Below are positions 3,869 to 39,321 of a stretch of 64,000 bases of DNA, in pieces (position 1 is the first letter of the stretch; the number at the start of each line of letters is the position of its first letter). The DNA comes from Beverwykella pulmonaria (Eukaryota > Ascomycota > Dothideomycetes > Pleosporales > Melanommataceae), in NCBI GenBank assembly GCA_001599595.1, contig BCHH01000010.1, forward strand, positions 1,667 through 65,666, given 5' to 3'. The position numbers were made by a program, and so were the translations under genes. The notes under the pieces are model-generated. The model saw only the letters and a list, made by a program, of their open reading frames with translations, was not told the DNA's origin and ran no database searches.

Positions 3869-5167
3869 TCACGTAGCAATCCCTATCTTTTGATCACCAC
3901 CCATATTCTTCTTCCCGGCCCCTCCCCCATCCAATTCGGGCACCAAATCGCCATGCATCTCAAACGCACCCTTTCCATCGTTCAACTGGCTGATTCTCGG
4001 TTTCCCATTCACAAATTTCTCCGTCGTCGCCATCTCGAAAATGAAGACGTCGCTATCTTTCTCAAATACTGCTTCTTGTCGAACTTTGAAGTCACCGTCA
4101 GCCTGTGTTTTCGTCATGTCATGATCGATGTGGTAGATTTTTGGGCGAGGCGGCGTTGCTGGGTGACGTTTTCGAATGCAGCGCAGGATAAGCCAGATTA
4201 AGAATATGAGGGAGGCTAAGGAACCCACTGCGCCTATAGATACGCCGGCGATAGTTGCTTTGGAAGGTGTTTGGCGAGGGGGCGGGGGAGTGGTGGTCGC
4301 AGACGGGGTTGCTGCTAGCGCTGTTACTTGTGATGATGACTGTGATGACAATGGTGTTGATGCTGATTGTAATGGAATTGGTGTTACGCAGCCAACAACT
4401 GGCGTTTCGCTGCTGGGGGCGAATCCGTCTATAGGATGCGCGTATGCTTGGGCACCTAATCATAACGTCAGTAAATATATGCACGTCTTATTTGGGTGAT
4501 GACTATGCCTGTCGTGGTTGCTGCGAACGGGGCAAGATTCGTGTCGCCGCTCTCTCCGAATTGTGTGACAGTGTATGTGGAGCTGATAGTGAGCTCGCTG
4601 TAGCAGGTTCCTCCGTATCCGGGTCGCTTCGTATCAACAGTCGTGTCTGGGGGGTGGAATTGATATCCGCTATTTACGTGTCAGTAAAACGATGGAAGAA
4701 TCAAATCATTCAAATACTGACGATGGACAGCAAGCCACATAGTTATTGTCCGCAGCAAACATTGTGCAGTAGTTGGAAGGGCAGACCAGAGGGCTCATCG
4801 CAGGCACTATTGATGACCCAACAGTGCCCGACGAGACCGCTTGATATGCCTTAATAAACTCACTAGGGAAGCACGCGCTCGAAGTCACGTTCTCGGCTGG
4901 AACTGGTTCATTCGCCCATATCAGATAACCGGGTGGGGGCAACATCGACAACCGGTTCTCCGTACATAACGCTGGAGGCGTAAATGTGTTAGTGAGTGGT
5001 ATGAATGTTGTAGGCTGGGGAGGTAGTGTGGCGGATTTCGAGGTTGATTTTCGTGTTGCTGAGGCGATCCTGCTTGGATTTGACGGGGCCGGGGAAGATT
5101 GCTGTCTGAGTTCGAGATGTGTTTTTGACGCCATTCCAGCTCTTACTTTTCGTGCTTTGAACGACAT
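3869..5167 (-). CDS. Cysteine-containing single-pass membrane glycoprotein (hypothetical)
   Basis: Three exons. Exon 1 (5167-4722) carries a Ser/Pro/Thr-rich start, then LPPPGYLIWANEPVP, SPLVCPSNYCTMFAAD and NNYVACCPS. A 52-bp intron (4721-4670, GTCAGT...TAG) joins in frame to GYQFHPPDTTVDTKRPGYGG with TCYSELTISS. A second intron near 4500-4450 leads to AYAHPIDGFAPSSE, a Ser/Thr-rich stalk, one membrane helix (VGSLASLIFLIWLILRCI) and a cytosolic tail of about 95 residues, ending at 3869. The pattern (conserved Cys-rich ectodomain, mucin-like stalk, one helix, short tail) is common among fungal cell-surface proteins of unknown role. The only join at intron 2 that keeps frame with a normal length uses a GC donor (GCATAG), so that boundary is tentative. 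No clear signal peptide at the first ATG. Confidence 0.7.
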
Positions 5168-6788
5168 ATCGATTCAAATCTATCTATAGTCGCACTCTCA
5201 GTCGGGACGAGGATCTGGGATCTCGTTTAGGAACCACCTGCCCTCACTGAGGATCGAAGTGCCTGGGGCAGAAAAGAAAGTAGTCTATATTCTAAAAAGA
5301 GAGAGGTTAAGCGACAGAGTATTGTACAAAACATGAGCACTCGCAGTAGGAAAGGGTGGAATAGTTAGGCGACGAGGTGGAGACTGGAAGCATAGAGCAC
5401 ATCAAAAGAAATGGCGGGACCGTTTAACATAGCATCAATGCTCATCCTGGCAATGTCGTTGGCCCCCCGGGGCAGCCACCCGTTAGAGTCTATACTGAAT
5501 TCCCCGTAGCGTGGTGCGATGCATGATTGACATGGGGCTGATTCGCCAGGATGTCCGTTGCCCAGGTGTGATTAGCGAGCCAAAGTCTCCGGGCGGACTT
5601 GAAATGCGAGTGGAAATTCGATAGAGGCAAAATGTTGCGACAAACAACGGCCGATTAACTCATTCCGGAGAGAGCAAAGATCGGATGAGTATTCAGAGCT
5701 TCGAAGTAAACGGAAACATTCCTCTGGTTGGAGCGCAAGAGCCAAGACAATGGAAGGTGGCAGTGCCCAGGAGGAATTTTGGCGTCATGACGCACGATTA
5801 CAATGCCACCACAATGATCAAAATAACAACGAGAAATAACAAACCCACTGGAGGTCACCGTAATTCGTGATAATACATAGCTGCCAGCGCAATCGCTAAG
5901 GCTGACAGTTGAATCATGGAGGCATCGGGGTTGAACAAGCCCAAAGATGGGTTCTAGAAATATTGTTTCGGGGCAGAATAGAGAAAATAGACGAAGAAAT
6001 GAAGAGAATGAAATTTCCGACAGAACTTGGGCAGAGAAGGAGTAAACGAGAAGGAAGGTCACGTTCGTGTTGGTGTGGCCCCCAAATCTATACCAAATGA
6101 TTGTCGGTCCCCGAGGATCAATAACCCCGTGTGCTATGTTACAAAGATGATTCGAGAATGAGATAATCAATAGTACTGCGGCTGATGGCGTGTTTCACAT
6201 GGATTAGCGAAAAAAAATTAATGATAGGTCAAACGGAGGAAAAGATAGTGCAAATTTGTGAGATTTCTAACACAGTACGCGCGCGATTAAACCAGGGACT
6301 TGATTGAGTATTTAAGCTTAAAAAGACCAAGGATAAACTCGGCGCCTATTGAGGAAGAGAGAATAACATAACAAAGGGTCGAAAGGAAGGAGGAGGAGGT
6401 TTTGGTTGTGAGATCTCGGTATGGAAGGGCTCCAACCGGCTCTGACGTCGCTTGGTGGACTTTGCTTTTCAGACTCAACCCGTAACAACGCCCTTTTGTC
6501 TCTTTTTCACTTATTGTATAACCCAATTCGACTAAATTGATAGCTTCTTCCTCGTCCATAATATTTTCAAAGTTATAATACGACAACACCTATGAGAAAG
6601 AAAAAAGTGAGAAAGCATATATTTTGTTTAAATAGCAAATCTTTAGAAGCCAAAATTTCTTGAAACTTTCATTTGCTATCGTATTGATGACGACTACGTG
6701 GACGATCCTGGATGACAGCTCCAAATCCACTCATCCTTCCTATCTTACTCGAGGGACACCCACATTTGAGGCGAGATTTTTGAACCTC
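5168..6788. other. No supported gene
   Basis: A 171-codon minus frame (6170-5655) and a 100-codon minus frame (6589-6287) are open, but neither shows a domain, splice-consistent neighbours or family resemblance. AT-rich, with A-tracts near 6210 and 6600. Probably intergenic or very old decayed sequence. Confidence 0.4.
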
Positions 6789-27076: not shown

Positions 27077-28294
27077 ATGTTGCTCCGGCTGCCACCCGAG
27101 GAATACACGGTAGGATGGGTGTGCGCGCTCCCGGTCGAGCTGGCAGCAGCGCTGGAGATGCTGGACGAAGAACACAGGTCCCCTGAGCGCTACGACAACG
27201 ACGATAACCTATACTGTCTGGGATCGATTGCGGGGCACAATGTGGTGATTGTGTGCCTGCCGGCTGGGTGCATTGGCAACAACCCCGCGGCGGCCGTGGC
27301 CACGCAGACGAAGGCGACGTTCAGGGGAATTCGGTTCGGGCTGATGGTGGGCATCGGAGGAGGGGTTCCCTGCGGAGAGGTAGATATTCGGCTCGGGGAC
27401 GTGGTGGTCAGCCAACCAGACAAGACCTTCGGCGGCGTTGTCCAGTACGACTCCGGCAAGGCGACTCCGAGCGGGTTCGAGAGGACAGGGTCGCTCAACA
27501 CGCCGCCACAGATACTGCTCGCTGCGGTGACTCGTGTAAAAGCGAACGAGTTCCGAGGAAGAAGTAAGGTCAGTGAGCATATTGCCAAGCTTGACTCTGT
27601 ATCCCAGTTTCGGCGCGACAAGGCAGGGCCTGACGTCCTGTTCGAGGCGACATACGACCACGAGGGAGGGCAAACATGCGGCTCGTGCAGCATGGACAGA
27701 CAAGAGGCGAGGCAGCCGCGTGAGAGTGGAGAGGAGGTAGTGGCACATTACGGGACGATTGCATCCGGGAACCAGGTGATGAAAAGCGCTGCTGAAAGGG
27801 ACAAAGTTAGTGCCGAGCTCGGCGGCGTGCTCTGCTTCGAGATGGAGGCAGCGGGCCTGATGAACAGCTTCCCGTGCCTAGTGATTCGTGGCATCTGCGA
27901 CTACGCCGACTCGCACAAGAACAAGAGGTGGCAGCCGTATGCAGCGGGGACGGCGGCGGCGTATGCAAAAGAAGTTCTGTCGATGATCCCGCCAGCAGAC
28001 GTAGCGCAGACTCGCACGGCAGATGAAACAATTAGGGATACAATTAGCCCACGTAGACAAACTAATTGTAAGTACCAAGACACATACTCCTAAACATCTA
28101 TTAGAACAGGGACTCTAATTTAATCAACTTATTCAGATCAAGGATATGGAAATTCACACAATATTCACGGCAACTTTAATCGCAATGTTGGGAATGTTGA
28201 TGGGATTGGCATGGTGACAGCAGATTATGGGAGTATTCATGGGGGTATTAATCACAACAGCGGAAAGAAAATCAAATTTGGTGGTGATAAATAG
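27077..28294 (+). CDS. PNP_UDP-domain protein with C-terminal Gly/Asn-rich motif
   Basis: Two exons (27077-28067, 28137-28294), 382 residues. Residues 8-310 form the complete nucleoside-phosphorylase-like domain typical of fungal NLR effectors: EYTVGWVCALPVELAAALEM at the start, GLMVGIGGGVP, DIRLGDVVVSQPD, VVQYDSGK, HYGTIASGNQVMK, GVLCFEMEAAGLMNSFPC and IRGICDYADSHKNK, with the conserved acidic residues present. In NLRs this domain precedes NACHT or NB-ARC; here no NTPase follows. Instead a 69-bp intron leads to about 50 residues rich in Gly, Asn and His (YGNSHNIHGNFNRNVGNV, then GSIHGGINHNSG) that are shared with the convergent membrane protein at 28981-30077. By analogy with fungal amyloid-signalling pairs, this would be the cytosolic effector switched on by templated assembly of the tail. 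That is inference; whether the domain acts on nucleosides, NAD or nucleotides is unknown. Confidence 0.85.
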
Positions 28295-28313
28295 GGCTAA
28301 AGTACTAAAAAGC
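28044..28313 (+). repeat. Inverted-repeat arm 1 (3' end of the PNP gene)
   Basis: Matches the reverse complement of 28963-29228 over about 265 bases: the last about 25 coding bases of exon 1, the whole 69-bp intron, the last exon and about 15 bases beyond the stop. Confidence 0.85.
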
Positions 28314-28736
28314 CCAACATCTTCATTTTTGAAATTCTCGGGTCAGATGATTTTTTTCCGATTTCTTTCACATATATTTCTTGTTCAGTTATTCAAAGAC
28401 AAGCTTAGACCACTCTCCCACCTATTGCACGCCTTGTTCATTAATATAGCATCACATGTTTTCCCGGCTGCTCCTGGTTTTCGGGATTTATGAGTTCCTT
28501 AACCGTCAGCGAAACCGTCACTTCAAGTTCTATAACATACGTCCTGTACCCGTGAGTATGTGAACGAACACTCAACCACGTCAAATCTTCAATTCTTCTT
28601 CACTATCAGCGCAGTAGCCCTGCGAACTGTAGCTTTGTCATATTGCTTCACATCAGACCTTGAATTCTAATACTCTTCCAGCGCCGTCGTTCCGCACCTC
28701 GCGGCTGCCCTACCGACGTTCGCCAACAACAGGAGT
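28314..28736. other. Spacer between the convergent genes
   Basis: No gene. It separates the two inverted arms together with the LTR-like element at 28737-28904. Confidence 0.5.
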
Positions 28737-28904
28737 TGTAAGAAAAGGTGAGTGGGTAGTGAGGAGAGACGATGAGCTAAGTTTATTTGTATTTTGTGTT
28801 CTTGTAGTTGGTTATAGTGTCTCTAGCTAGAAGTAATCAGAGGCTCTTATATAGATTGACCTACGTCACATGATACTACAGTGACTTATCCCTATCTGCT
28901 TACA
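28737..28904. repeat. LTR-like element (168 bp)
   Basis: Starts TGTAAGAAAAGG and ends ATCTGCTTACA, with a TATATA box-like stretch inside. The ends match the TGTAAG...CTTACA ends of LTR family A, but the interior does not. No target duplication is visible (GGAGT on the left, GTAAA on the right), so it may be a solo LTR of another family or a small inverted-repeat element. Confidence 0.4.
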
Positions 28905-28962
28905 GTAAAAGAATTCAGAAAGGACTCATCTGTCTCGAGATTCTCAAAAATGACGGCGTCAG

Positions 28963-29228
28963 GCTTTCAGCACTTTAGCCCTATTTATTACTACCAAAAT
29001 TCATTGTGTTTCCGCTGTTGTGATTAATACCCCCATGAATACTCCCATCTGCTGTCACCATGCCATTCCCATTAACGTTCCCAACATTGCGATTAGAGTC
29101 GCCATGAATATTATGCGAATTTCCGTATCTTTGAGCTGAATGAACCAATTAATTTAGACTCCTTATTCTAATGGAGATTTAGGAGTATGTGTCTTGGTAC
29201 TTACAATTAGTCTGTTTAAGTGGGCCAG
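28963..29228 (-). repeat. Inverted-repeat arm 2 (3' end of the membrane-protein gene)
   Basis: Partner of 28044-28313. The two introns are the same length (69 bp) and start with the same 27 bases. Within the exon one arm lacks exactly one codon. Confidence 0.85.
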
Positions 29229-30077
29229 TTGTATCTGCTGCATCCGAGTTTCTGTTTGTGTACGCTGGAGGTCCGTTACCATCTCCTCCTCCCATTATAC
29301 CTTGATTGTGTTGGTTATTAACTTCTACTCCATTTTTCTTCAAGTATAAGAAGAGTAGCACACCAAGAGCAATGAGAAGCAGAATGAAGAGGAAGGATCC
29401 GACAGCGATGCCGGCTATGGATCCAGGAGAGAGGTTCACCCTGCTAACGACAGAAGGAGATAACTCCGGCGCCGTGAGAACTCCTGTAGTTGATACTTGG
29501 GGATTGTTGCCTGCCCCTTCGCTGACGATTGACCGCGAAACAGCTGGTGGCGAATATGCCAATGGCACAATAGTCGGAGTGGTATCCGACGGGAATACGA
29601 ACGTTGACTGGATGATAGATGGTTTGAAGCCAACTGGTACTGATACAGGCGAATTTGTGGGACAGAGGTCTGTGGCATCGGCTGAAGCGGGTTTGCAATA
29701 TGGGCTACCACCAGCACCGTTTCCCGTAGCCCCTTCCCAGCCAGGCAAACAACATACAGTATTCCACGAGGTCGGCGATGTGCTAGAAGTGTAAAACACC
29801 CAGGAAGGATCGGCGCAGGTTTCCATGGTTTGAACGGTCTCGCTGCAGTCGTTTGCTGTAGACACGTTAGTGAAACGATTAATCTGTGTAGCAAGTGAGG
29901 AGACTTTCTGCTTGGGCAACATGCGTCGCCAAAGGTGCTGCAGTAGGTTCCTTTGGGACAGCAAGTCGTTTTAAAGGACCATGAGCATTGTACCATGGTG
30001 TCTGGACAGCAAGAGGTTGTCAAACTAGTCCCACCATTGAATGGTGCACGCTTTCTCAGCCTTGCGTGGGATCTCAT
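28981..30077 (-). CDS. Cysteine-rich single-pass membrane protein with the shared C-terminal motif
   Basis: Three exons (30077-29912, 29855-29205, 29135-28981), 323 residues. The ectodomain holds many cysteines (SCCPDTMVQCSWSFKTTCCP, KGTYCSTFGDACCP, NDCSETVQTMETC, NTVCCLPGWEG), then a Ser/Thr/Pro stalk, one membrane helix (IAGIAVGSFLFILLLIALGV followed by LLFLYLKK), a cytosolic stretch, and the final exon encoding RYGNSHNIHGDSNRNVGNV and GSIHGGINHNSG. The layout suggests a surface sensor whose cytosolic tail ends in the same motif as the convergent PNP gene 0.7 kb away. The first intron is read as GC-AG (GCAGAA...CTACAG, 56 bp); a GT donor nine bases upstream would also keep frame but remove CCP. 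No classical signal peptide at the first Met. Ligand unknown. Confidence 0.75.
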
Positions 30078-31491: not shown

Positions 31492-33504
31492 TCAAGCTTC
31501 GGCAGGGAAGGTGGCCTTCGCCACAGCATAGTCGTCATGCGAGGCCGTGATCTCGAGCTCACCCTTTTCAAACATGTGCTCAGGCAGATGTACGGCACCC
31601 TCAGCATCAGTGCGAGCGGCGAACTCGCGCGCACCCTGACGGACGTGCACCAGGGCTCCTTCGAGCGGAGGGGCCTTGCCAACTGTCTGACGGCCCGCGG
31701 CAATGCGAATCACGGGGTTGCGCAGGCGCACTACTGCGGGCTGCAGCCCCATCGCCGGCAGCGCGGAGCGGTAGACCTGAAGCTCGGGATCGCCCAGCAG
31801 GTTGAGCGTGAACCTAGCCCAGCGCTCACAAGTCCAGCCGTACGGCGTGCCGGTCACGGTCATGCGGGTATCGTTGAGGAGGCCGAGGTTGCGCGTTGTG
31901 ACCAGGCGGTGGAAAAAGGCGCGCTGGTAGTCGTCGCCGACGCCGATCCACCCGTAGCGCGTGTTTCCTACGTATGCGACAGCGCCGCCGTTTGGATTCT
32001 TGAGCAGGACCTCGCTCATGGCGTCATTGACGTCGAACGCGTTGGTTGTGCAAGAGTCGGCCCACGCGATGAATCCAACCGGGTTGGTCAGCCCGGCGCA
32101 GATGGAGCTATTGAGACCGCAGCAACCGCCGCTCCAGCCGTGGCCGGAGAGCGAGACGAGATGCGGACCAGCATTGAGGCCGGCGCGCAGCTTCGTTGAG
32201 GTGAGGTAGTCGACGGGAGCTGCAGTCCGATCAACCAGCGAGAGATCGAACTCATCCTCGTAGTAGCGGTCGAAGGCGTCGATCCCGGGCAACTCTTTGG
32301 CCACCTGCTTGCGGAGCGTCTCCTGGTCTTTCATCGAGCCCTCCTCATCCAAAGGATCAATCTCGTAGCACTGCGGCGTGCGGTCCGCGAGTGGGCCGTG
32401 TACAATGATCCATTCCGTCGGGGCGGGGACGTTGGTCCCCCCAACTACGGTTACGCTTGGTGTCAGGTCTGTTGCTGATTTGACAAAGTACCAACCTCGC
32501 ACTGAGGCGCTCGGGTCCGTCTTGAACGGGAGGACACGGCGATCGTTTTCGGTGACGCGCGCAATCAATTCGAAAGTGGAAGGGCTTGGCTTCACATCGC
32601 ACCTCAAGAGCGTCCGCGACTGCGCAGCATCATGGCAGTATTGATTGTTAGCGAGGGCTGCGCTCGCGGCCGGATAGATCCAGCTGCGGCCGCCCCAGTC
32701 GGAAGCCGCGAGCAGCATCTTGCGCGGCCAGTTGAGATACGGTGCGCCGAGCTGCTCGTACGCCAGCGTCTTCTTGACGAAGGCTCTCGCCTCCACGGCG
32801 GTTTCAACGGGAGCGCGCCCGACGCTAAGATCGGTCTGCCAGATGACTCCATCCAGGTCGGCTCCGTCCCCGCGGGCCTGGCCATAGAGGCCGTTTCCAA
32901 CCGCATCCCAGTCGTGCAGCGGCACGTACACGGATGGCACCTGAAACGAGGAGGGGCTGGCGCCGGCAGGCGGTGCGTTCACATAGCTGCTAAGACTGGC
33001 ATAGTAGAAGTCGGTCGGCAGCAAGTTGCAGTCATAGAAGAACTGCAGTTGCGTGTTGACGAGCGAGGCCGGACCTTCAACCCGTATGAAGTTGGTCGCA
33101 GCGGCGCTGCGGGTCGAGTAAGTGTTGTTGGTGGTGAAGTACCATCCCGGGCTGGTGCTGCTACATGCGCCCGCCGAGTCGTATGGGATGAGCTGCCCGG
33201 TCTGCCGACTCACGAGCTGGTTCGCTGAGCTTGCATACCACCCGCCGCCGAAATTCACGGCGCAGATTTTCAGGCACGATCCAGTCCAGAAAGACGTGTT
33301 GTCGAGGGGCGGGTCCACGGTACCCAGATTGACGATGCCTTCCCGGGGCCCCGCCGCGCGCCGCACGGGCACGATGCTGACGTCGCCGCCAAGCAGCAAC
33401 CATCTACCGTGTTGGCGCACGTGCCGACCGGAACGCGTGACGATCGCCGAACTTCAATTGACGCAACTGACACCCCAACTTCAACACGCGACAACTCCAC
33501 CACC

Positions 33505-35553
33505 ATGACCCCGATTGAAGAAGCGCTTGCAGCGATTGAATCGCGCGAGCCAGGAGATGATCTTGTATACCAGGAATATGCTGACTGGTTTGGTGTAGAT
33601 AGAGTTACGTTGGCTCGAAGACACCAAGGCCGTCAGGGCTCGCGAACAGCCAAAAACTTCGATCAGAAGAAACTTACGCCACAACAAGAGGAGGAGCTTG
33701 TACTCTATATTAGAGACTTGACTATCCGTGGCCTACCACCTACTCGAGCCATGATACAGAATTTTGCCTCTACAATAGCCCACGAACGTGTTTCTTTGGC
33801 ATGGGTGACGCGCTTTAAGGCCCGCCACCATGATGCGCTCATCTCAAAATACACCTCCGCTATGGACGCTACGCGCCACGCAGCTGACTCATATATCAAG
33901 TACAAGTTGTACTTTGATCTCCTGCACGGAAAGATGGAGGAGCATGAGATAGAGCCTAAGAATAGCTACAATATGGACGAAAAGGGCTTTATGATTGGTG
34001 TGATCGGACGCTTAAAAAGAACCTTCACACGCGCCTAATGGGAGCGTAAAGAGGTTACTGCTGCCCTCCAGGACGGCTCTTGAAAATGGATAACAACTAT
34101 TGCTGCGGTCTGCGCTGATGGGACTGCGCTGCCGCCTGGCCTAATCTATGAGTCTAAAAACAGCACGCTACAGTCGTCATGGGTGGTCGATATTAAGGCT
34201 GGAGTACATGACGTATTTGTGGCTTCAAGCCCATCAGGATGGACAAATAATGACGTGGGATTGGCCTGGTTGGAGCAGGTCTTCGACCGCTGCACGAAGA
34301 AGAAAGCCCGCAATGGGAGAGACTGGCGCTTACTTATCCTTGACAGCCACGGCAGCCACCTTACAAAGGGGTTTTTGAACTACTGCCTTTGGCGTAAGAT
34401 CTATGTTGCAGTATTTCCACCTCACAGTACCTATACGCTGCAACCGCTTGACGTTGTTTGCTTTAAGCCACTAAGTAGCGTGTACTTAAAAAAGCTTGCA
34501 GAACACACCTAGAAGAGCCAAGGGCTAGTTCTAATTAAGAAGGACGACTTCTTCCTGTTGTTCTAGGACTCCTGGCATGAGAGCCTTAAGAAGCAGACAA
34601 TTCTGCGCTCTTGGGCTGCTACTGGTATATGGCCTATGGACTGAGAGAGAGTTATGAAACGCTTCCCACCTAGGCCCTAAAACAAGCCAAACAACAAGCT
34701 AGAGCTAGCGTGGCGTTAGGCGGATCGTCTCCTACACTTAGCAATTGATAAGCTGTTGTCTGAAGCTAAAGAGGTGTCTACTCTGCTTCACCACCTCACT
34801 AACTAGAACGAGCTTCTTATAGATGAAAACAAGGGCCTTCGCAAGGCTCTCACTACCAAAAAGAAGCACAATAAGAAGGGCAAGGTGCTTGATCTGCAGT
34901 AGCGCAAGGAGTACTATGGTGGGGCAGTGTTCTGGTCACCTAGAAAGATGAGGGAAGCTCAGACACGTGACGCAACGAATAAGAGACTTGCTGAAGAGGA
35001 ACAACTCCAAAAAGCTGAGATGAAGAAGCTTAAGGCTGCCAACGCNATATATAACAAGAAGCTTAAAGAACAGAGGCGTGTAGAGGCTGCAGCAAAGCGT
35101 GAGGAGCGTGAAAAGGAGAAGGCNGAAAAGGACGCTAAGAAAGCAGCTAAAAAGGCAGCTCAAAACACCCAGAAACCTATCTCAACTTCCCAAAAGGGTA
35201 AGCGCAAAGCCTCAACTCCNNNNNNNNNNNNNNNNNNNNNNNNNNNNNNNNNNNNNNNNNNNNNNNNNNNNNNNNNNNNNNNNNNNNNNNNNNNNNNNNN
35301 NNNNNNNNNNNNNNNNNNNGAAAAGGACGCTAAGAAAGCAGCTAAAAAGGCAGCTCAAAACACCCAGAAACCTATCTCAACTTCCCAAAAGGGTAAGCGC
35401 AAAGCCTCAACTCCTGCCTNGTCAAAACCCAAGCGCNAGAAGCGTTCTGGTGGTGCTGCAGCACCTGTTGAAGCTACACCTGCTGTTTCACCTAAGGTGA
35501 GCCGCAAGGGCCGCGCTGTCAAGCTACCCACCCGATACACACAAAGTAATTAA
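33505..35553 (+). pseudogene. pogo/Fot1-type transposase, broken by stops
   Basis: Starts MTPIEEALAAIE, followed by a psq-type helix-turn-helix (YQEYADWFGVDRVTLARRHQ), the CENP-B-like second helix-turn-helix (LTPQQEEELVLYIRDL, ERVSLAWVTRFKARH) and a DDE_1 domain (YNMDEKGFMIG; DWRLLILDSHGSH; VFPPHSTYTLQPLDV). At least nine stops interrupt it, including TAA after FTRA (34036-34038) and TAG after AEHT (34510-34512), mostly at positions where Gln or Trp is expected; this looks like RIP. The basic Lys/Ala-rich C-terminus carries the assembly gap and four single undetermined bases. Not functional. Confidence 0.85.
35220..35319. other. Assembly gap (100 N)
   Basis: Exactly 100 Ns. The 95 bases before it (35125-35219) recur identically after it (35320-35414). 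Single Ns also occur at 35046, 35124, 35420 and 35437. Confidence 0.95.
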
Positions 35554-36747
35554 TAGAAGTTGTTTGCAATAGTTAATATATTAATCCACCAAGAAATCCC
35601 GCGATAATAGCTATTGCTGCTGTTGTTACAGCCTCATGTTTGTAGTGGTGATAATCTTGATGGGGCGATCGTCACGCGTTCCGGTCGGCACGTGCGCCAA
35701 CACGGTAATGCCCCACGTACTACGGGCGATCTTCAGGAACCGGCGGATCACTTCCTGCAGGTCGCGGGAGTTTGTGCGCACGTCACCCCAGTAGCCGGAG
35801 ACGATGTCGGTGATGGAGACGACGCGGGCCCTGATGCCGCGGTCGCGTTTGGCCTGCGCGAGATCCTCGAATGCCGCCAGCATGCCCGGACGGCTGACGC
35901 CGGGCGTGATGGTGTCTGGGTTCCATGTGACGTTGTCGGTGATGACCAGGTAGTCGTACTTGACAGGGCCCGCCGCCGCCTGCGGGGGACCCACGCTCTT
36001 TGGGTTGATTACGTGATCGATGGCCATGTCGCGCAGCCGTTCTGCCTCCGCTGGGCTGCTGAGGAAGGGCTCAGGCTGCGCCATCATCCGGCTCTTGTCG
36101 AAGTTGGTGGGGTAGAGCTGCTTGAAGGCGGCGATGGCCTCTTCGGGGTCCATGACGGGCGCATCTTTGGACGTCTCAATCGCCAGCTGCACAGAGATAC
36201 AGAGCTCGAGCTGGCCCTTCTCGCCGATGCGCACCGGCGCGGCCTCGACAATGGCAATGCGGGTAGTCCCGATGGTATCGATTCGTACGGCACGAACAAC
36301 CGGCGGCGGGTTCTTGGCCCGGGCCTCGTAGGCCTGCGGGTTGGGCGGCGCGTAGCTGGGGGCTGGCAGTCCTTTATACACGGCTGCACGGTCGGGGCGA
36401 TGGGCGGTTCGGCACGAGCAGTCGGCGCCGCAGTGCATCGTGGAGCCCTGAGCCGGGCGTGGGTGCTGCAAGGGGACGACCAGGGTCGCATCCTCCGAGA
36501 CGCGCTCCCACTTCTCCTCGATGATCTTCAACCCGCGAGGCCAGGAGGGCTCAGGAACAGCAATGCTAAGTTGGGTTCTCGGTAGAGCCGGCTCACCGGG
36601 CTCTCCGCCGCTCTTGACGTCAGCCAGTTTGACGACAACACCGAACGGCGTCTTGGTGGTGGTCAGGCCCTCCCTGTCGAAGTGCAGCGAGACGACGACT
36701 GATTGGTCGTCGCCCTCCCTGTCATGGTAATGGTGCTCGCAACGCAT

Positions 36748-39321
36748 GGCTTGGGTTGTCTCAAAGTAGTATACAGCTACAAGGCACTACTGCTTTGTTA
36801 TCGTCAAGAATCGATAGTAGAGGCCATGTCGAGACAGGGTCATTATATATGCTACACGAATACAGCCAACTCCGCGCCAGAGACGGCAGAACCTCCATTA
36901 CCCCACAAGAGTCAGGAGATATGTTAAGACACCGATCATCATGCTCATGTTCAGGGATGGACTGATTGCTTCGAGCCAATGAAAGAGCCGAGTGCGCCCC
37001 ATACATATCCCACCATATATCAGGCTATCGTTCCACTTCATGACATATATCCCAGTGCGTATGCTCCACCAGTAAGAACTACACATGTATCCTCGAGGCT
37101 CAAAGACTGGCCTATGACTTTCTTAACAATGGCGGCTGATCACTGCTGATCGTCCCAGTAGATATTGAAGCGACAGCTATCTCTTACGTGGAATTGCCTA
37201 TACACACCACTCGTCTACGCCACAATAACTATGCTGAGTCCACCTCCTTTGAGCGGCCAAAACTAAGGAAGCACGTATTCGCCCAAGCAGTCTGCAATGG
37301 CTTGACGCTCCAACATTAACTTCCATCATCCATACTTGGGGCTCGTATCACCATCGCCTGGCTCTTGACCACTATCGTATTCGGAACAAGTCAATTGGTC
37401 TCATCTACAGCAGACTACGCATGCCTTCTATCTTCACGAGCGGCGGCGGAAGAAGCTTTCAGTGTCGAGGAAACGCCCATGGTCTTCACCAGTGCCCCCG
37501 CTCTGGTACCGACTTAGAGCGTCGGACGCTGAGTTGTAACTGCCCTCACGTCCACTCTAATTGCAGGTATCAGCGCAATTAGAGCCTGCCATACAGCCGT
37601 GGCCATATCATACCTGATGAAGAGGGATGTGATACGTTTTGACTTGTCAGGTGTCATGACCCGATTAAACCTTAAGTCGGCGCCAATGTGGGAGATGAGG
37701 GCCATAGTATGAAGACGATATCGTTGTCTCCACCATAAATGCGAACCCCCGGAATGAGCCAGTAGACCCAGGGTTTCGAATGGACAATACTAGCTATAGC
37801 ACAACGTATAAAAACCTCACATTCCACGGTCGTACAGATAAAAGGGGCAATAGAAGCTTCCAATGATGTATTCATGGACATTATTTTGTAGTAAGAGCTT
37901 CCTTACTGTAGAGACGCAAGCCAGAAGGTTCCTTCTTGTCGAGACAAGATGAGCTTCGTGATGCAAAAATATAGCATACAATTATGTTTCACCTACGTCT
38001 CTTCTCAACAGAAGATTCAACTGAAGACTTTGATCCCACTCCTATTCATCTCCGTTTTACCTCTCAAGTACCTTCGTAGACAGTATCTTGTCGCCCATCC
38101 CGTGTGATCACAGCTCACTTTAAACCGAATTCCTGCAGCTTATGCAGGCACACACTCAGCTTCTTATCAACCTATATTGCAGCTTCCTATATTAAGTTGT
38201 AGGCTTAAAACCACTTCTACGAAGGACAGATACTAACTAGGAGCATGATATTCAATACACTTCACTCAGAGCGATACGAAATTTTGAGGAGGGGCAGAGT
38301 CGAGCTCTGCTCGCCACTCCCCTAATACGAGTTGCGTCGCTCACGCGTTCAGCCGACACAACTAACAGACACCAATATTGTAAATCGAATGACCAGCAGT
38401 GGTCTAATGGAGGCTGCTGCTGTTAGATTAGGGTAAAAGAGGAAAAGTAGCTTCCCCACAAGATCATGCCCACCAGACCCAGCCTGCGGCTTGTTGATAG
38501 AGTTCCTCAGGACAAATCGTGTGGGCATGAGAGTGCTCATCATCCCCGCAATAAGGTCACTGGTAAAGTGAGAACACTATGATCTTTAGTGCAGACAATT
38601 TTACTAGGATTGCTCGAGTATGAATTTGCATCGCTGGTGATACGCTGGCTTCCTCGCTCTCGGTATGTCACTCGGGGCGGCTTGCGCCGCATGCGACCAG
38701 GCTAGGCTTTTGATAGAAGGAACTGCGAGAGATAAGTGGCTGAGTGGTGCTAATGTGATCACATCCTAAAGTGAGCTGAAGTGAATAGAACATGAAGAAG
38801 TATCGCCTTCAGATGCAAGGGGGAAGAGGAGGCCAGGGAAATCCTCTCGGACATCTTGTAATTTAGATGCTCACGCTGCGCCATAGCGAAGAGCTACTTT
38901 GCTCGAGTCCACCTCAGGCACGGGTTGAACGCTTGGATGCATGGTGCAGGGAACGGGTTTTGGTTTCTGTCAGCGTTATCACTCAATGCTGCATGTATAT
39001 GGGCATCCGAACACCATGCCATTCATTACAAGAGAACCATCGAATGCACCGAGAACCCCACCGAATACAAGACCCTCACCCCAACGAGATCACGAATACT
39101 TCTTCTGTCTTTCATCACAACTCTCTTTCATTCCTTTGGTAGCTAGATACAACGAAATTGCAACAGTCTACTGCCAAACCTTGCCTTGATCCTCCCTCTC
39201 TCAGTGCATTGCTGCTTCGGACATCGCATGGCTGCAAATCGCCTTCCACCATCGTGATTTTCTATATCGCACCCTTTACTCCACCCCAACGTGAACACCT
39301 TACAAACCGAGCTTGACTGCG
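36748..39321. other. Repeat-poor, gene-poor stretch
   Basis: About 2.6 kb without a gene I can support. Short hydrophobic frames exist (minus 37881-37672 and 37705-37514; plus about 37335-37520) that could be decayed pieces of a membrane protein, but no family is recognisable. Confidence 0.4.

Follow-up and report, generated by a model that had tools for sequence, protein, structure and literature searches.

The window analysed is a stretch of 64,000 nt of the Beverwykella pulmonaria genome, and within it two genes face each other in convergent orientation. One, on the + strand, encodes a PNP_UDP protein; the other, on the - strand, encodes a cysteine-rich membrane protein. In the spliced models the PNP gene extends from an ATG at 27077 to a stop codon at 28292-28294 (382 aa), and the membrane gene from an ATG at 30077 to a stop codon at 28983-28981 (320 aa). 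The features are as follows.

27077..28067, + strand: PNP gene exon 1 (spliced model), with the PNP_UDP_1 domain at residues 12-289 (Pfam PF01048, 42.5 bits against a cut-off of 25.1)
28037..28371, + strand: PNP-side arm of a duplicated module (DNA alignment, 335 bp)
28068..28136, + strand: predicted PNP gene intron of 69 nt (GTAAGT...CAG), in-frame open on either side
28137..28294, + strand: PNP gene exon 2, encoding the common C-terminal tail, with stop (spliced model, tail alignment)
28207..28266, + strand: run of 57 columns identical between the arms, an internal 3-nt gap set aside (p 0.002, random placement)
28905..29235, - strand: membrane-gene arm of the duplicated module, inverted, 84% identical to the PNP-side arm
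28981..29135, - strand: membrane gene exon 3, encoding the common C-terminal tail, with stop (model, tail alignment)
29136..29204, - strand: predicted last intron of the membrane gene, 69 nt (spliced model)
29205..29855, - strand: membrane gene exon 2, encoding the Cys-rich ectodomain, stalk, transmembrane segment and juxtamembrane part (model; relatives P0121 and P0122)
29341..29421, - strand: transmembrane segment, with KK directly after it (hydropathy maximum 2.97)
29856..29920, - strand: probable intron 1 of the membrane gene, 65 nt, one of 11 open GT-AG choices
29921..30077, - strand: membrane gene exon 1 as modelled, with a CCP-type Cys-rich start; the 5′ end is uncertain

The probable first intron of the membrane gene has a weak donor (GTTGCC) and a branch-like CTAAC. 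The encoded protein has a single transmembrane segment, with the cysteine-rich part N-terminal to it, and is a putative type I membrane receptor, whose tail would be cytosolic. The modelled N-terminus shows no signal peptide, and inspection by eye of some 0.9 kb of upstream sequence revealed none either. Splicing of the last exon is predicted in both genes, and the GTAAGT donor and the acceptor are retained in both arms. Read-through (i.e. intron retention) would cause both predicted proteins to finish in ...QTNCKYQDTYS.

A sequence-only reading of this DNA had proposed that both spliced proteins end in a common tail, and this holds in its strings and coordinates. The predicted tails are 77% identical, with 41 of 54 alignment columns the same. 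They are rich in G+N+Q (41 and 46%), with DEKR contributing 16 and 10%. The two imperfect turns perceived in the tail find modest support, in that the word IHG-x(1-2)-N-x-N-x-G occurs twice in each (shuffles give p 0.022 and 0.018), although the two tails are not independent. A DNA pattern for G-x-I-N-x-N-x-G has 15 sites, the two tail copies included.

The arms match as DNA with E of about 1e-96, one comparison splitting them into three pieces, and the likeness of the tails is not due to chance. The duplication reaches beyond the tail exon: it takes in the intron of 69 nt and, downstream of the stop codon, a further 77 nt or so. Since the unit is a DNA segment with an intron and 3′ flank, the likeness is explained by a single duplication event. 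Identity between the arms is 89% in exon 2, 83% in the intron and 78% in the 3′ flank. The sole indel in the coding part is of 3 nt, and both tails are open and in frame. Silent sites inside the 57-column run are also identical, so the run may reflect gene conversion or constraint at the DNA level. A whole-genome DNA search revealed only the two arms and no third copy of the module. Origin of the tail from a repeat family, which the earlier reading had allowed for, is therefore rejected. RIP was also considered as the source of the differences between the arms; a RIP-like context surrounds 10 of the 36 transitions, which is no clear sign of it. The inverted repeats of L062, judged by eye, resemble mobile-element ends.

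Selection on the whole tail peptide was not significant, using dN/dS (NG86) and simulation on these two tails. Of the 21 codons that differ, 15 change the amino acid, compared with a mean of 15.8 out of 22 in the simulation of no selection (this was run with 22 substitutions where the aligned codons show 21). The tail remained free of stop codons in 62% of simulated runs without selection. In the core of the tail dN is 0.047 and dS 0.25, with a simulated p of 0.06 for a core that was picked after looking. A beta-solenoid prediction had been suggested as a check; an AlphaFold monomer of the lone tail has a pLDDT of 59 and no strands, and is uninformative.

The PNP protein also matches the PADLOC phosphorylase-superfamily effector model (E 3e-15). 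It belongs to a subfamily with eight paralogues in the same genome that are 63-79% identical across nearly the whole domain. The two of these eight that were examined, C22 and C7, continue into NB-ARC and NACHT modules, so that the PNP-NACHT and PNP-NB-ARC NLRs of this genome belong to the same PNP subfamily as the window gene. Note that C22 and C7 carry NLR modules after the PNP domain, at the place where the window gene has its tail. The same continuation into NLR modules is found in three of the 120 database relatives listed (P0007, P0064 and P0067). The subfamily is named in reviews as an NLR effector, and the identification of PNP as an effector type by the earlier reading is thus borne out. 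Domains of this family are reported, in passages of PMC12881547 and PMC10197012, to cleave ATP and to kill on activation. Passages of PMC3321046 describe a free-effector alternative; with paralogues that run into NLR modules, a free PNP protein with a G/N-rich tail fits that alternative. As is general for fungal amyloid signalling motifs, the tail is a short motif common to clustered genes and C-terminal on an effector domain.

The earlier reading had recommended looking for the tail on other effectors or at the N-terminus of NLRs, and none was found. A genome-wide search with each tail as query, accepting E values up to 10, gave only the pair, with no other tail-bearing locus and no copy at an NLR N-terminus. 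The protein database search gave no candidate among the proteins that it covers (about 210-670 aa, sharing three 5-residue words), and no second species with the tail was found in the searches made. There was no match in Pfam, the PDB, or prokaryotic and viral sequences. Against the Pfam profiles, at E up to 10, the tails matched no motif of HET-S, PNT1 or similar systems. A tail profile run on 5858 ORFs gave a best E of 2. As a control, a sigma effector tail in the same search recovered three NLR-side places at 47-65% identity. The lack of an NLR with the tail, in a search that works for sigma, fits a pathway with no NLR. The scan of NLRs, which gave no partner motif, comprised 60 upstream regions, with 150 of 193 candidate NPHP3_N matches scored and no intron models, and a strongly diverged NLR motif may escape these searches.

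Sigma motifs occur in the same genome. Of its nine sigma places, six are arranged as three pairs that face each other, inverted just as the window genes are, so the layout of the window pair fits that of an amyloid-signalling locus. In the sigma system (SESA/SESB/HET-eN), as in the window pair, a G/N-rich C-terminal tail is common to neighbouring genes, and passages of PMC3321046 describe sigma-type extensions on PNP (UDP-phosphorylase) proteins. The same source gives amyloid signalling motifs a bias to G, N/Q and aromatic residues, with few charges. Two sigma tails of this genome have 51 and 43% G+N+Q with 2% DEKR; the window tails are close to them in the former but more charged. Neither window tail matches NACHT_sigma (Pfam PF17106), and of the three-fold sigma A/B pattern, motif A, GxGxQF(Nxx), is absent from both. 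Identity of the tail as a diverged sigma is unsupported, with no NACHT_sigma match and a likeness that stays within what shuffled sequences give (p 0.008-0.925 over 24 comparisons). Two loose sigma-B-like words (GGTQNINT) carry no weight, as the pattern was made after looking. Moreover, sigma has an NLR partner, whereas none was found for the window tail, whose partner is a membrane protein.

PUASM, the PNP_UDP-associated amyloid signalling motif, is like the window tail in being carried C-terminally by a PNP_UDP effector, as set out in passages of PMC9815663. By inspection the PUASM pattern given there, FxGxGxQxxGxGxF, is absent from the window tails, in which the only Q is at alignment column 4; the PUASM pairs it describes involve NLRs, while none was found for the window pair. 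The PP pseudo-palindrome FxGx(x)NxGLQLxGxNxGxL is built around a Q, and the window tails have no internal Q. A second PNP-associated motif, PF01048_015, has its logo in Fig E of S1 Text of PMC9815663. Judged on sequence, the tail is outside the definitions of sigma, PP and PUASM, the three whose patterns were compared; the earlier reading likewise could match it to no motif that it could name. HET-S/NWD2 and HELLP/PNT1, in the portions of PMC7889193 and PMC5485727 that describe them, resemble the window pair in having clustered genes and a short motif that is C-terminal on the effector. They differ in that the partner is an NLR with an N-terminal motif, and the effectors are HeLo-type.

A precedent for a membrane sensor comes from Drosophila, where passages of PMC9496462 describe PGRP-LC as a membrane receptor whose cytosolic amyloid motif (cRHIM) signals to a partner, IMD, with the same kind of motif. 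The proposed arrangement is similar in combining a membrane receptor and a cytosolic partner with a similar motif. By contrast, the kingdom, motif and domains are different, the partner is an adaptor where here it is an enzyme, and amyloid is demonstrated for PGRP-LC/IMD but proposed for the window pair. Literature searches, confined to open-access papers, turned up no transmembrane protein of a fungus that bears such a signalling motif, which does not prove its absence from print; the word 'transmembrane' occurs 0 times in PMC9815663 and PMC12261475.

We tentatively favor as the best explanation that two clustered proteins each carry, at the cytosolic end, a tail that works as a homotypic self-assembly (amyloid-signalling-like) module. 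We give even odds to the tail being a genuine module of this kind, its amyloid nature is a little more doubtful than that, and a membrane protein acting upstream of PNP is rather unlikely. Amyloid folding, the direction in which the two proteins would signal, the role of the membrane protein as a receptor and its topology are all putative. What the DNA shows is an inverted duplication that gave each of the two convergent genes the same tail-encoding module at its 3′ end. The cysteine-rich part might then meet a ligand or a change in the wall, causing the membrane proteins to cluster. The clustered tails would nucleate a beta-rich assembly, which would draw in the tail of the PNP enzyme and convert it. 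The enzyme (nucleoside-cleaving and probably ATP-depleting) would thereby be switched on and the cell killed or arrested, the membrane protein doing the job of an NLR.

A serious rival, in our view possible but not probable, is a neutral or near-neutral duplication, local and inverted, that supplied one gene with the last exon of the other. Gene conversion may have kept the copies alike, and the tails would have no joint function. It accounts for likeness that continues through the intron and flank, for tail changes and stop-free frames at the level expected without selection, and for the confinement of the tail to this one locus. It sits less well with coding parts that are open, in frame, interrupted by one 3-nt indel and better kept than their flanks, with the low dN of the core, and with the same geometry in the sigma tails of this genome. 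If instead the 3′ module acts at the level of DNA or RNA (in 3′ end formation, or as an inverted repeat between the facing genes), with the last exon never or only sometimes joined, the inclusion of intron and flank and the identical read-through endings would follow. However, exon 2 is better kept than either intron or flank and the splice signals persist in both copies; furthermore the module has the same orientation in both mRNAs, so they do not pair with each other. We hold this explanation to be very unlikely.

Both proteins might also act downstream of a sensor, an NLR or another, whose motif has diverged beyond detection, the membrane protein being an effector or anchor, much as SESA and SESB are outputs of HET-eN. 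Clusters of several effectors with one common motif are known (passages of PMC5485727 and PMC3321046), and the NLR scan covered 60 upstream regions. Against this are the genome-wide recovery of the pair alone, the success of the same search with sigma and the poor best score of the profile, and we consider it improbable. The self-assembly explanation is weakened by the origin of both tails in one duplication event, by the NLR partners of published systems, by the higher charge of the tails than in sigma and by the lack of any relative of the tail in the searches made. In its most specific form it is a signalling pair with no NLR. The single-pass membrane protein would be the sensor and would switch on a PNP (ATP-cleaving) cell-death enzyme through templated assembly; the C-terminal motif, private to the pair and the first of a new family, would have spread between the genes by inverted exon duplication and been kept matched by gene conversion. 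As a whole this form is unlikely. The claim that a membrane sensor replaces the NLR fits the lack of a tail-bearing NLR in a search that recovers sigma NLRs, while the missing signal peptide and the non-significant selection on the whole peptide count against it.

In published descriptions, amyloid signalling in fungi starts at a cytosolic NLR and leads to an effector. The window pair is plausibly a new amyloid-type variant, with a membrane protein standing in for the NLR. The suggested route of origin is an inverted duplication giving two facing genes one tail exon, and the three sigma pairs share this geometry. If the proposal is true, events at the cell surface would be linked to regulated cell death in fungi, as with the cRHIM receptors of insects, and signalling modules would be shown to be interchangeable.

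The sequence-only reading placed two facing genes here, and both are present, the PNP gene at 27077-28294 on the plus strand and the membrane gene at 30077-28981 on the minus strand. By predicted splicing the PNP gene has one intron of 69 nt (28068-28136) and a product of 382 aa, and the membrane gene has a last intron of 69 nt (29204-29136) and a product of 320 aa. The first intron of the latter is probably 29920-29856, chosen from 11 open GT-AG options because a branch-like CTAAC is present there; this is the least sure part of both models. The common C-terminal tail that had been claimed for the two proteins is confirmed, and it is encoded by a duplicated DNA module comprising inverted arms at 28037-28371 and 28905-29235, with 84% identity and a spacer of 534 nt. 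Comparing arm with arm (gaps set aside), 26/31 positions are identical at the end of exon 1 (84%), 57/69 in the intron (83%), 138/155 in exon 2 (89%) and 59/76 in the 3′ flank (78%), while identity outside the arms is 41% and 47%. Searching the whole genome (45.6 Mb, 31 contigs; the window is C10, 1667-65666) with the module DNA and both tail peptides gave matches at these two places only; such searches score just the candidates from a first look. As judged from these alignments, a single duplication event accounts for the likeness of the tails, and the question it leaves is whether the tail has a function.

Signalling of the amyloid type that links the membrane protein and the PNP enzyme is the most economical functional reading. 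The main rival is neutral duplication of an exon, where the one event explains the likeness, and replacement changes in the whole tail are indeed near the neutral mean; the amino acid is altered in 15 of the 21 differing codons, compared with a mean of 15.8 of 22 in neutral simulation. A stop-free tail is expected in 62% of neutral runs. Calculated by NG86, dN is 0.117 and dS 0.19 for exon 2 together with the last part of exon 1, and 0.047 and 0.25 for the tail core; the excess of silent changes in the core has p 0.06 in neutral simulation, for a core that was picked after looking. There are 57 identical columns in a row at 28207-28266 (a 3-nt gap set aside), with p 0.002 if the 51 mismatches were randomly placed. 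Since this run includes silent sites, the alignment points to gene conversion or a constraint on the DNA, rather than on the peptide alone.

Both halves of the signalling reading have precedents. PMC9815663 provides one for the PNP half in the amyloid motif PUASM, and PMC9496462 one for the membrane-protein half in the cRHIM of insect PGRP-LC. PF01048_015 is another motif tied to PNP_UDP proteins in the former paper, and the tail may belong to it. The pair departs from the usual definition of amyloid signalling in that the searches gave no NLR partner; amyloid formation by the tail, which is crucial to that definition, is putative here.

The genome contains the known sigma system, with nine sigma places in total. 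On contig C9 a SesA protein bears a sigma tail at its C-terminus, and its neighbour, an NLR, has one at the N-terminus. With a SesA sigma tail as control query, three of the matches lay immediately upstream of NLR domains (identity 65, 65 and 47%; E 6e-8, 2e-5 and 2e-4). In the same search at E up to 10 each window tail matched only the other, so that the tail motif, which it had been proposed to seek at NLR N-termini, was found at none in a search that recovers sigma NLRs. A two-sequence tail profile gave a best E of 2 against the 5858 ORFs of 71 loci, among which were 60 regions upstream of NLRs, against 150 scored NPHP3_N matches. The best pairwise score among those ORFs was to the SesA sigma tail, a likeness within shuffling (24 comparisons, p 0.008 to 0.925). 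Should the tail be a signalling motif, we found no NLR here whose motif matches it as closely as those of sigma NLRs match the tails of sigma effectors. No tail match was found among PDB sequences, and none of 92 pattern hits in prokaryotic genomes or 48 in viral contigs was confirmed. A protein-database search gave no candidate, which is weak evidence because many fungal entries look like unspliced ORFs and exact common words were needed. AlphaFold predicted no strands for the lone tail (pLDDT 59); this says little, because such a motif may well lack a fold as a single monomer.

The PNP protein matches PNP_UDP_1 (42.5 bits) and a PADLOC phosphorylase-superfamily effector. A weak match to MTA/SAH nucleosidase in the PDB (E 2e-4) spans the EMEaA and iRgicDyad stretches, which contain catalytic residues. 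The genome has eight paralogues, 63-79% identical across nearly the whole domain. The downstream DNA was read for two of these; that on C22 (L005) continues into an ORF which, compared by eye with the database proteins P0064 and P0067, is NB-ARC-like, and that on C7 (L003) into NACHT. Among 120 listed database relatives, which include those of Alternaria, Phaeosphaeriaceae, Didymella and Decorospora (Pleosporales, the probable order of this fungus), three have NACHT or NB-ARC domains (P0007, P0064, P0067) and none contains any of five tail words. The module starts at PNP residue 321, and alignments end at residues 315-324 for 110/120 listed relatives; this coincidence is weaker than it looks because 91/120 themselves end ≤5 aa from that point, many being unspliced ORFs. 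Another 23/120 extend at least 20 aa beyond it. P0029, a metagenome relative, has a different H/N/Q-rich C-terminus (SNTWHNHNSKIGEQVQTKTVYGNQSITL), which may be a tail motif of another kind or come from reading through an intron. An alternation between tailed free effectors and NLR-fused kin is described in PMC3321046, and the PNP protein follows this pattern, having the tail in the position of an NLR part in kin. ATP cleavage is reported for the PNP domain family in two reviews (PMC12881547, PMC10197012).

Besides a Cys-rich part with no Pfam name, the membrane protein has a stalk rich in Ser, Thr and Pro and a single strong TM segment with KK after it. Neither the model nor, by eye, the ~0.9 kb upstream showed a signal peptide, so calling it a receptor is a guess. 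Two of 3660 candidates match with an E of 1 or lower, P0121 from Clohesyomyces aquaticus (71% identity across 73 aa in the Cys-rich part) and P0122 (37% over 171 aa). The tail was seen in neither, which leaves the tail question unsettled because the P0121 model looks wrong downstream and P0122 ends just past the TM segment. Within its own genome the membrane protein gave just three weak matches, all to the TM region. PPxY and LPxY are WW-domain ligands; there is a juxtamembrane PPAY (29260-29271, minus strand), and in P0121 a comparable N-rich stretch is followed by LPAY. A WW-ligand-type PPAY would fit a cytosolic tail. At 3872-5173 (minus strand) two ORFs encode a further Cys-rich protein with a single TM segment and no Pfam match. 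The gene adjoining the membrane gene looks as though it has been split by a transposon:

31495-33453 and 35629-36786 (within 31495-36786), minus strand, peptidase C25 gene in two pieces
33229-34035, Tc5-type transposase ORF between the pieces

The nine sigma places include three facing pairs (six places), and every pair is an inverted repeat at the DNA level (G000 is this genome):

C9 pair, 74% identity over 112 nt, spacer 327 nt
C6 pair, 76% identity over 88 nt, spacer 535 nt
C3 pair, 82% identity over 90 nt, spacer 242 nt
G000:C9:1851310-1854127 (L038, L077, L081, L085), sigma cluster of divergent NLR and SesA genes, facing a HET-like gene
G000:C6:774073-774831 and C3:2846112-2846578 (L078, L080, L082, L084), facing sigma pairs, one tail behind a HET-like gene

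One partner of the C9 pair is SesA (by Pfam), and there are HET-like partners at C9 and C6 (by eye). In the C9 cluster Pfam NACHT_sigma is found in both the NLR and SesA, and the sigma tail of the HET-like gene is broken; stops lie within sigma copies at C9 and C3. An inverted-repeat scan of 86 overlapping sequences (340 kb, enriched for sigma and NLR loci) also found a second pair at the C3 locus, two self-palindromes and a pair at L062 (G000:C2:4165631-4168731; 1055-1148 and 1868-1964, 76% identity, 720 nt apart). The L062 repeats lie upstream of a HET-NACHT fusion ORF and look by eye like mobile-element ends.

The window locus has the same facing inverted layout as the sigma pairs, but its motif is a different one, carried by a PNP enzyme and a membrane protein, and both copies are open. 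Such motifs may repeatedly have spread through inverted duplication of an exon.
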